Below are positions 2,168-4,301 of a stretch of DNA of 64,000 nucleotides, piece after piece. Origin of the DNA: Fusobacterium perfoetens ATCC 29250 (lineage in GTDB: Bacteria; Fusobacteriota; Fusobacteriia; Fusobacteriales; Fusobacteriaceae); the NCBI RefSeq assembly GCF_000622245.1, contig NZ_JHXW01000006.1:1-64000 (forward strand), in the 5' to 3' direction. A program made the position numbers and the translations under genes. The number at the start of each line of letters is the position of its first letter. Position 1 is the first letter of the stretch. The notes beneath the pieces are model-generated. The model was given only the letters and a program-made list of their open reading frames with translations, was not told the origin of the DNA and did not search any database.

Positions 2168-4078
2168 TTATTTCATTAATATTTTTTTTAATTTTTCATA
2201 AGAATTTTCTGGATTATGCCCTAATTTTTTAGCCATTAAATTCATAACTACTATTTCTACCATTGCTGCAGCATTTCTACCTGATGACATATAAATCTCA
2301 GCTTTATAGACCTCTTTATCTAAAATTTTATCTTTTCCTGTAGAATAATTTACTCTTGTTAAATAATCATCTGATTCTTGTTCTTTAATCTCTATTATAG
2401 CTTCTATATTTTTACTTAAAACAACAGAACTCATTCCATAAAGAGTTTTTATATCAATTATCCCTAAACCTCTAATTTCCATAAAAAATGGTAATTTAGA
2501 AGCTGTACCTACAACAACTCCATCAGCACTTTTTCTAAACTTCACTAAATCATCTGCCACTAATCTATGCCCTCTATGAATTAATTCAAGAGCTGTTTCA
2601 CTTTTACCAATACCACTTCTACCTGTTAATAAAATTCCAAAGCCATACATTTCTAAAAATACTCCATGAACTGTTAAAGTATCTGCTAAGCGTTGTTCAA
2701 GGTATGTATTTAAACTTGCTATAATTCTTGAAGGATTGCTTTCAGGAGATTTTAACACTATTTTTTTATTTTCTCTTACTAACTCTTTAAAATCTTCTGG
2801 TATATTTAGGTCTCCACAAATTATTATTCCTGGAAAATTATATGAAAAATATTTTTTTAAATTTTCATCTCTCTTTTCTTGAGGTAATCTTTTTAAATAT
2901 TCAAGTTCTACTGAGGTAATAAGTTGTAATCCTTTATTTTCATATATTTCTTCTTCTAGATTAAAAAATCCTGAAAGAGCCATTGCTGGTCTTGTTATAC
3001 TTGTTGAAGTTATATAATTTTCTTTTAAATACTCTTCTCCATATAATATTTCTAGTGGATTAAATTTTATAAATTCTTCCATAGAAACTTTTTTTTCTTC
3101 CATATTTTCTCCTCTTTTTTTTCTTTCTCTTTTCTCTTTTATAATTCTTTGTGACTCTTCCATAAAATATTTTGCAGAATTAACACCCATTAATCTTAGA
3201 CGAGAATCTATAGTAGCTGTTTCTATAACAACAGCTAAATTTCTACCTTTTCTACCTGGTAAAGTTATTTTTTTAATTGGGTGGTCTAAAATATATTCAA
3301 ATACTTCATCTACTCCCAATCTATCATAAAACCTTTTTTCATCCCAATATTCTAAATCTATTATTAGTTCTATTCTTTTTCTCATCTCATTGGAAATAAT
3401 TCCAAAATTTAATGTAAGGTTTATATCTTCTTGGTCTTCTCCCATTAAAAGATAATAATCTCTCTCTGGTTGTACTTTAGCTCTTGTATTAATCCCTATT
3501 AAACCTCTATCAGTTTCTTTAACTAAAATATTTTTATCACTTATAAATTTGTGTCCTCTTTCAATTAACTCTATAGTAACACCAATTTTAAGGTCCTTTT
3601 CTCCTCTAATTAATACACCCATTCCATAAATATCCAATAAAATAGCATCATCAATTATTGTTTCTCTTCCTAAAATATTTCTTAAAAGATTGTTAAAGTC
3701 TCTTATAAACTCTGTAGTTCTATTTTTAGTTCTTAAAACCACCTTATTATAAATCTTAGCCCTTTCTAAAATACTTTCTATATATTTTGTTTTACAACTT
3801 AAAATAAGAGCAGGAAATTTATGTGAAAAATATCTATCTAAAATTTTATGTCTCTCTTCTGAAGATAGTCTTAATAAATATTCACTTTCTCTATGTCCCA
3901 TTACATGAACGGACCTTTTTAATTCTTCTTTATCAACAAAAAATCCTGTAAATTCATATCCAACTCTATGAATTTCATTCATATATATTCTTTGATCCAA
4001 ATCTCCATCTACTAAAACTTCTAAATTAAAATGTTCTATTATATCTCTAAGAGTAACTATTTTTGGTTCATCTAACAC
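2168..4078 (-). CDS. hprK: Tandem-fused HPr kinase/phosphorylase (degenerate N-terminal copy + active C-terminal copy)
   Basis: HprK phosphorylates and dephosphorylates Ser46 of HPr to control sugar uptake and catabolite repression. The 636-residue frame holds two HprK-like halves. Residues 326-636 (311 aa, the normal family length) keep the catalytic His (VHGVFLEMYG, H471), the P-loop GRSGIGKS (486-493), VADD and the signature EIRGLGIIDI. Residues 1-325 align throughout but have Asp144 at the His position, GEKDLKIG (159-166) in place of the P-loop and ISDK for VADD, so this half should not bind ATP normally. It does keep the C-terminal PGRKGRNLAVVIETA region. An internal ATG with its own Shine-Dalgarno (3101-3114) could yield the C-terminal half alone. 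The family assignment is firm; the role of the N-terminal copy is unknown. Confidence 0.88.
   Translation of the reverse strand: MLDEPKIVTLRDIIEHFNLEVLVDGDLDQRIYMNEIHRVGYEFTGFFVDKEELKRSVHVMGHRESEYLLRLSSEERHKILDRYFSHKFPALILSCKTKYIESILERAKIYNKVVLRTKNRTTEFIRDFNNLLRNILGRETIIDDAILLDIYGMGVLIRGEKDLKIGVTIELIERGHKFISDKNILVKETDRGLIGINTRAKVQPERDYYLLMGEDQEDINLTLNFGIISNEMRKRIELIIDLEYWDEKRFYDRLGVDEVFEYILDHPIKKITLPGRKGRNLAVVIETATIDSRLRLMGVNSAKYFMEESQRIIKEKRERKKRGENMEEKKVSMEEFIKFNPLEILYGEEYLKENYITSTSITRPAMALSGFFNLEEEIYENKGLQLITSVELEYLKRLPQEKRDENLKKYFSYNFPGIIICGDLNIPEDFKELVRENKKIVLKSPESNPSRIIASLNTYLEQRLADTLTVHGVFLEMYGFGILLTGRSGIGKSETALELIHRGHRLVADDLVKFRKSADGVVVGTASKLPFFMEIRGLGIIDIKTLYGMSSVVLSKNIEAIIEIKEQESDDYLTRVNYSTGKDKILDKEVYKAEIYMSSGRNAAAMVEIVVMNLMAKKLGHNPENSYEKLKKILMK
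3101..3114 (-). promoter_or_regulatory. Internal ribosome-binding site and ATG inside hprK
   Basis: On the minus strand GAGGAG (3109-3114) lies 5 nt before an in-frame ATG (3101-3103), codon 326 of the long hprK frame. Starting here gives a 311-residue HprK of normal length with all catalytic motifs. The spacing and strength equal those of the true starts of neighbouring genes. Use of this start is inferred, not shown. Confidence 0.6.
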
Positions 4079-4091
4079 TTTTTCCTCCTAG

Positions 4092-4301
4092 TTATTTTGA
4101 TTTATCTATTTTTATTTCTCTTATTATTTTACTATTATCAAGAAAAGAAAGAGTAACTTTCTCAGTCTTATTAGTTGTTTTATTTACAATATTATTTATC
4201 TCAAATAAATAAGAAAATTCTTTATAAAATAAAAAACAAACAGCAATTCCTATTATTGTATTTGCTACGAAGAAAAATATTGGTTTTAAAATTTTTAACA
4301 T
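4092..4301 (-). CDS. Small single-span membrane protein, unknown function
   Basis: I do not recognise this 69-residue protein. Residues ~5-26 form one hydrophobic segment (IFFFVANTIIGIAVCFLFY). A polar tail follows, rich in Asn, Thr and Lys, predicted to fold as short strands. The start codon lies inside the end of folC (7-base overlap), so translation is probably coupled to FolC. The next gene downstream is hprK, 13 bases away. The codon pattern matches its neighbours and supports a real gene. A septum or transport accessory role is possible, but nothing in the sequence shows it. Confidence 0.6.
   Translation of the reverse strand: MLKILKPIFFFVANTIIGIAVCFLFYKEFSYLFEINNIVNKTTNKTEKVTLSFLDNSKIIREIKIDKSK

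Follow-up and report, generated by a model that had tools for sequence, protein, structure and literature searches.

Why would a bacterium keep two copies of an enzyme in one gene when one of them has lost its catalytic residues? This question is raised by hprK of Fusobacterium perfoetens ATCC 29250, the gene for HPr(Ser) kinase/phosphorylase (HprK/P), which is central to sugar signaling; it is a frame of 636 amino acids (aa) at 2168..4078 in the 64,000-nucleotide (nt) stretch of DNA analyzed here (the window). All features of the gene given below lie, like the gene itself, on the minus strand. The frame runs from a GTG at 4078 to a TAA at 2168 with no internal stops, has domain matches, and is kept in relatives. 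An initial annotation had described it as two HprK-like units, a dead one that might act as a regulatory lid and a live one that might also be made alone as a normal-length enzyme. The two units were readily confirmed: Pfam places the Hpr_kinase_N and Hpr_kinase_C pair twice in the protein, TIGR00679 matches two stretches (463 bits for the whole protein), and the halves align over 304 residues with 25% identity (E=1e-25). The N half (residues 1-325; 3104..4078) is catalytically dead and scores below the TIGR00679 cut-off of 240 (191.7 bits), while the C half (residues 326-636; 2171..3103; 311 aa as a short form) carries the catalytic face and scores above it (282 bits). As shown below, each half has lost what the other keeps of the composite HprK active site, so that neither would be expected to function by itself, and the dead half is probably better explained, from its sequence, as part of that site than as a lid.

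The two halves have lost complementary faces of the HprK active site

In HprK/P of L. casei, two adjacent subunits hold each HPr. One contributes His140, the P-loop (155-162), Asp179, Arg180, and Glu204, while its neighbor contributes Arg245 on a flexible loop (235-251), the K3 loop (266-271), and positions 294, 297, 301, and 305 of the C-terminal helix; the K3 loop, which is required for dephosphorylation, sits at the neighbor's P-loop (PMC9399212). From a sample of 98 Fusobacteriota genomes, we extracted 58 full-length genes from 18 genera and aligned their 58 N halves and 58 C halves with 75 single HprKs from outside the phylum, scoring retention as the share of halves keeping positions conserved in single HprKs. 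On the catalytic face, retention in N and C halves, respectively, was 0% and 100% at H140, G160, and S162, 2% and 100% at S157 and R206, 14% and 100% at D179, and 19% and 100% at E204. The P-loop positions S157, G158, G160, and S162 were kept in 0-2% of N halves, whereas His140, the P-loop GxxGxGKS, Asp179, and Glu204 stood at 95-100% in C halves. The neighbor face gave the reverse pattern, with retention of 100% and 0% at E235 and P266, 98% and 0% at W237, 93% and 0% at D244, 100% and 7% at R245, 100% and 3% at G247, and 100% and 9% at F297. Core positions G148, G150, G155, G193, G218, K226, G270, R271, and E278 were kept by both halves. Averaged over the residue sets defined by the literature, retention was 0.18 in N halves and 0.91 in C halves for the catalytic set and 0.86 and 0.15 for the neighbor set. 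This contrast was reached by 0 of 96 circular shifts and 0 of 20,000 random position sets; the complementarity is post hoc, as the pattern had been seen in the alignments before they were compared with published residue lists.

The gene in the window follows this pattern. Its N half has Asp143 (3650..3652) in place of the catalytic His140 (L. casei numbering) and a P-loop remnant, GEKDLKI, that is one residue short (3584..3604). The initial annotation was therefore right that His and P-loop are gone, but not that the Asp pair is, because its first residue remains (Asp181; D in 86% of relatives) and only the catalytic second has become Lys182. The same half keeps the complete neighbor face, hereafter the clamp (3164..3352), consisting of E243-x-W245...YDR253LG in the Arg245 loop, the K3 loop (P274-R279; 3242-3259), and the C-terminal helix to F305. 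The C half has the catalytic His471 (His140; 2666..2668), a His in 58/58 C halves, the P-loop GRSGIGKS (residues 486-493; 2600..2623), the pair Asp509-Asp510 (178/179; 2549..2554), and Glu534-x-Arg536 (2471..2479), which includes the Glu204 metal ligand in the signature region. It had been credited with the catalytic His, P-loop, and Asp pair, which holds for these kinase motifs; overlooked was that the canonical Arg245-loop, K3-loop, and C-helix motifs are missing, with degenerate sequence at the Arg245 loop (residues 565-577; 2348..2386) and K3 loop (YMSSGR, residues 596-601; 2276..2293). Thus the Arg245 loop, K3 loop, and C-terminal helix do not accompany the catalytic unit within the C half but do so within the whole fusion. 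Since the N half retains exactly the residues that complete a neighbor's site, it probably belongs to the active site, contrary to the suggestion of a mere regulatory lid. Likewise, a C half that lacks the neighbor-supplied part would not make the short product a normal HprK, as had been proposed.

A reduced relative, G087, has a minimal natural version of the fusion. Its open reading frame (ORF) of 269 aa (L196:2112-2921) overlaps the start of nrnA by 4 nt, which indicates that it lies at the orthologous place. In the encoded protein, the N-half clamp (LVNWNKEEHFDRLG...IPIKKGRD..., C-helix) runs straight into the catalytic region of the C half, which reads HSVHG...GKSGVGKSE...IADD...MEVRGLGI, and neither Hpr_kinase_N domain is left, nor is the P-loop region of the N half. 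A single-chain AlphaFold2 (AF2) model has a coherent fold (predicted local distance difference test [pLDDT] 81, predicted template modeling score [pTM] 0.81). Survival of the clamp together with the catalytic face is the outcome of reduction that a shared site predicts; this is the sole case known, from an assembly that is 88% complete.

The tandem is conserved across the sampled Fusobacteriota

HprK was present in 69 of the 98 genomes, and every intact fusobacterial HprK except that of G087 has two units in one frame. The tandem extends to four further families (f2, f3, f4-g21, f6), three within the order and one beyond it. Most genomes of family f4 (Leptotrichiaceae-like, a name that is inferred) lack HprK; four g21 genomes of this family retain a divergent tandem of 608-612 aa. 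In a tree of the halves, all N halves group in a single clade, as do all C halves (support 100/98 and 100/99), which points to a single duplication-fusion predating the sampled members of the phylum. The conservation of the fusion in 58 single-frame tandems from 18 genera thus answers a question left by the initial annotation, which had also allowed for separate genes or an assembly frameshift; neither was seen in any intact fusobacterial relative. An assembly artefact, whether frameshift or fusion, was ruled out as each of the 58 genes lies in one frame. The only broken gene (G081/L056) comes from an assembly that is 62% complete, and "stop inside" flags in G013, G025, and G033 were ordinary terminal stops. 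A short HprK-like fragment with a stop, L041 (G009:C4:91296-91451; E=8e-4), may be a chance match.

Outside the phylum, a search for related loci with the full tandem protein gave no match, and the 75 outgroup loci, all single-unit, were gathered with the C-half alignment. None of these 75 loci is fused, and neither are the HprK matches found when 101 genomes of another phylum were sampled.

An in-frame start at the junction is conserved

The first codon of the C half, codon 326, is an ATG (3101..3103) preceded by a Shine-Dalgarno (SD) sequence, GAGGAG (3109..3114), as the initial annotation had noted. An in-frame start with an SD-like stretch occurs at this junction in 58/58 genomes and 18/18 genera (46 ATG, 10 GTG, 2 TTG), with a median SD duplex energy of -8.2 kcal/mol; at least one species of each of the 18 genera reaches -6 or lower. 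In every 9-column window of the alignment, we counted the genomes that have an in-frame start and an SD of -6 or lower. The main start, with its SD AGGAGG 5 nt upstream of the GTG (4084..4089), scored in 55/58 genomes and the junction in 44/58, while the next best window scored in 9/58 and the median was 1. Residues around the junction start are variable, and the SD is encoded by differing amino acids (KRGE, QGEE, SKED, RKDK). Where the ATG has given way to another codon, as it has in at least four genera (g4, g1, g10, g2), that codon is always GTG or TTG, and all ten junction Val codons are GTG, a codon that makes up 12% of Val codons in hprK genes. Judged by this conservation of start and SD through the phylum, translation very probably does start at 3103.

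A Ser46-type HPr is the likely substrate

Fusobacterial genomes mostly have two HPr genes. In the window's genome, HPr-b (GTSLLKLL; G000:C8:63383-63625) lies directly before ptsI, and HPr-a (NGKSIMGLM; G000:C5:36505-36741) lies away from genes of the phosphotransferase system (PTS), next to genes that by eye resemble ispH, rpsA, and glnA. We take NGKSIMGLM to be the Ser46 motif known from HPr of the Bacillus type. When the HPr-a motif was searched for as a DNA pattern, it matched 64 of the 69 HprK-positive genomes and 0 of the 29 HprK-negative ones; in G034, the motif is present though missed by the pattern. As the motif occurs only in HprK-positive genomes, HprK and HPr-a appear to be co-inherited and co-lost, and HPr-a with its Ser46 motif is the likely substrate of HprK. 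A search for CcpA as a downstream partner found three LacI-type regulators, none above the CcpA cut-off.

Structure models and gene neighborhood

A full-length single-chain AF2 model has both halves folded (pLDDT 83.6, pTM 0.69), and the matches in a Foldseek search were HprK structures. The gene is flanked on one side by folC and a 69-aa ORF and is followed by nrnA (DHH/DHHA1) and a sepF-like gene. The 69-aa ORF, between folC and hprK (4092-4301, minus strand), has a hydrophobic N-terminus; in G087, a protein that looks SPOR-like by eye is encoded at a similar place.

Discussion

We consider it likely that fusobacterial HprK is an HprK/P whose composite inter-subunit site is now divided over two fused copies, with an internal start that adds a free C half. 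A single duplication-fusion in a common ancestor of the sampled Fusobacteriota would have been followed by loss of the nucleotide-binding catalytic face in the N half, which kept the donated part (Arg245 loop, K3 loop, C-terminal helix), and by loss of the donated part in the C half, which kept the catalytic face. Each long chain would then form one complete site, from the P-loop, His, Asp, and Glu of the C half and the Arg, K3 loop, and helix of the N half, and one dead site. Whether the composite site forms across a two-fold axis or round a three-fold axis would decide between three and two live sites per six units. Work on 1KNX and 1KO7 reportedly found Hpr_kinase_N domains paired in hexamers, and in the fusion these domains could pair within one chain. 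A salt bridge has been described in the N-domain dimer of HprK (PMC8004850). The enzyme is expected to act on the Ser46-type HPr-a and not on the PTS HPr beside ptsI. The short form made from the junction SD and start, lacking a clamp, is predicted to have little or no activity by itself, above all in phosphorolysis. Because it brings catalytic faces without clamps, it is expected to work only as a member of oligomers that also contain the long form.

A different explanation is that the N half is a regulatory pseudokinase, a lid that inhibits or senses an effector over a C half sufficient by itself, so that the short form would be a normal but unregulated enzyme. Such a role could account for an N half that has no catalysis yet keeps its full fold and Hpr_kinase_N domain, and the internal start would free the C half. 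We find it unlikely given the state of the C half, where most positions of the Arg245 loop are retained at 0-7% and P266 and the C-helix residues are lost; single HprKs conserve the lost residues at 85-100%, and these are exactly the ones that the N half keeps. Moreover, G087 has dropped nearly the whole N half apart from the clamp. The N half could also be a functionless copy that is decaying and persists only because it is fused, as its lost catalytic residues and lower mean column identity (51% vs 55% in C halves) might suggest. However, R253, L254, G255, P274, G278, R279, E286, R293, and F305 are invariant in N halves across the sampled phylum and the frame is open in 58/58, which makes decay highly improbable.

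The junction start, too, could be read otherwise, as a relic of a formerly separate second gene or as an SD-like pause in a purine-rich linker, with no product. The linkers are rich in Lys, Glu, Arg, and Gly, which yields SD-like DNA, and synonymous shuffles usually match the observed SD. Even so, the start codon is kept in 18/18 genera despite changing neighbor residues, with only GTG and TTG as substitutes; a pause site needs no start codon, and other internal windows reach at most 9/58. We therefore doubt this explanation, and return to a split site with a real internal start as the reading against which several points must be set. According to the synonymous-codon shuffle, the SD largely follows the linker amino acids and is unremarkable in most single genomes; as shuffles often give an equal SD within one genome, the case for the internal start rests on conservation across genera. 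Some junction SDs are weak (-4.3 to -4.8 in four of five g12 genomes), and messenger RNA openness at the internal start is barely above average, with about one third of other windows as open. In the C half encoded in the window, residue 575 is an Arg that aligns with position 245, as in only 7% of C halves; pLDDT at residues 572-575 is below 50. The AF2 models are of single chains, so that the contact between N and C halves is our inference, and if the site forms in a three-fold ring instead of across a two-fold axis, alternation of N and C halves would be impossible, leaving part of the sites incomplete.

Single-unit HprK/P (TIGR00679; PDB 1JB1, 1KKL, 1KKM, 1KO7, 1KNX), which gave the best sequence and structure matches, resembles the tandem in fold, motifs, N-terminal domain, and composite-site residues, but has both faces of the site on one chain, whereas the fusobacterial tandem has them on different halves. 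The tandem itself was already known: a 2008 paper stated it for Fusobacterium nucleatum, with no further case among 222 genomes, and the portion of its text consulted describes no dead half, complementary loss, phylum-wide distribution, or internal start (PMC2405797). A literature search found no further paper linking HprK and Fusobacterium, and the complementary split and conserved internal start appear to be new, being absent from the papers searched. ClpB/ClpB-deltaN (PMC6168691) and AerR (PMC6199135) are likewise single genes with two in-frame starts and an N-truncated form, which in the case of ClpB is that of an oligomeric protein (PMC6168691). Unlike in these cases, the part removed from HprK, though degenerate, is paralogous to the entire remaining enzyme and apparently supplies part of its active site.

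On balance, we lean toward a phylum-wide HPr-Ser46 switch operated by an obligately asymmetric enzyme, its site split between fused paralogues, in which the internal start would set the ratio of catalytic faces to clamps and might also shift the balance between kinase and phosphorylase. The locus is an unusually clean natural split of a shared inter-subunit site between duplicates that can be read from sequence and is preserved through a phylum with both pathogens and commensals of humans. Because the faces of HprK are genetically separated here, experiments with mixed halves could show what each contributes to kinase versus phosphorylase activity. The short protein will escape standard annotation, and its conserved start may represent a built-in control of subunit ratio.
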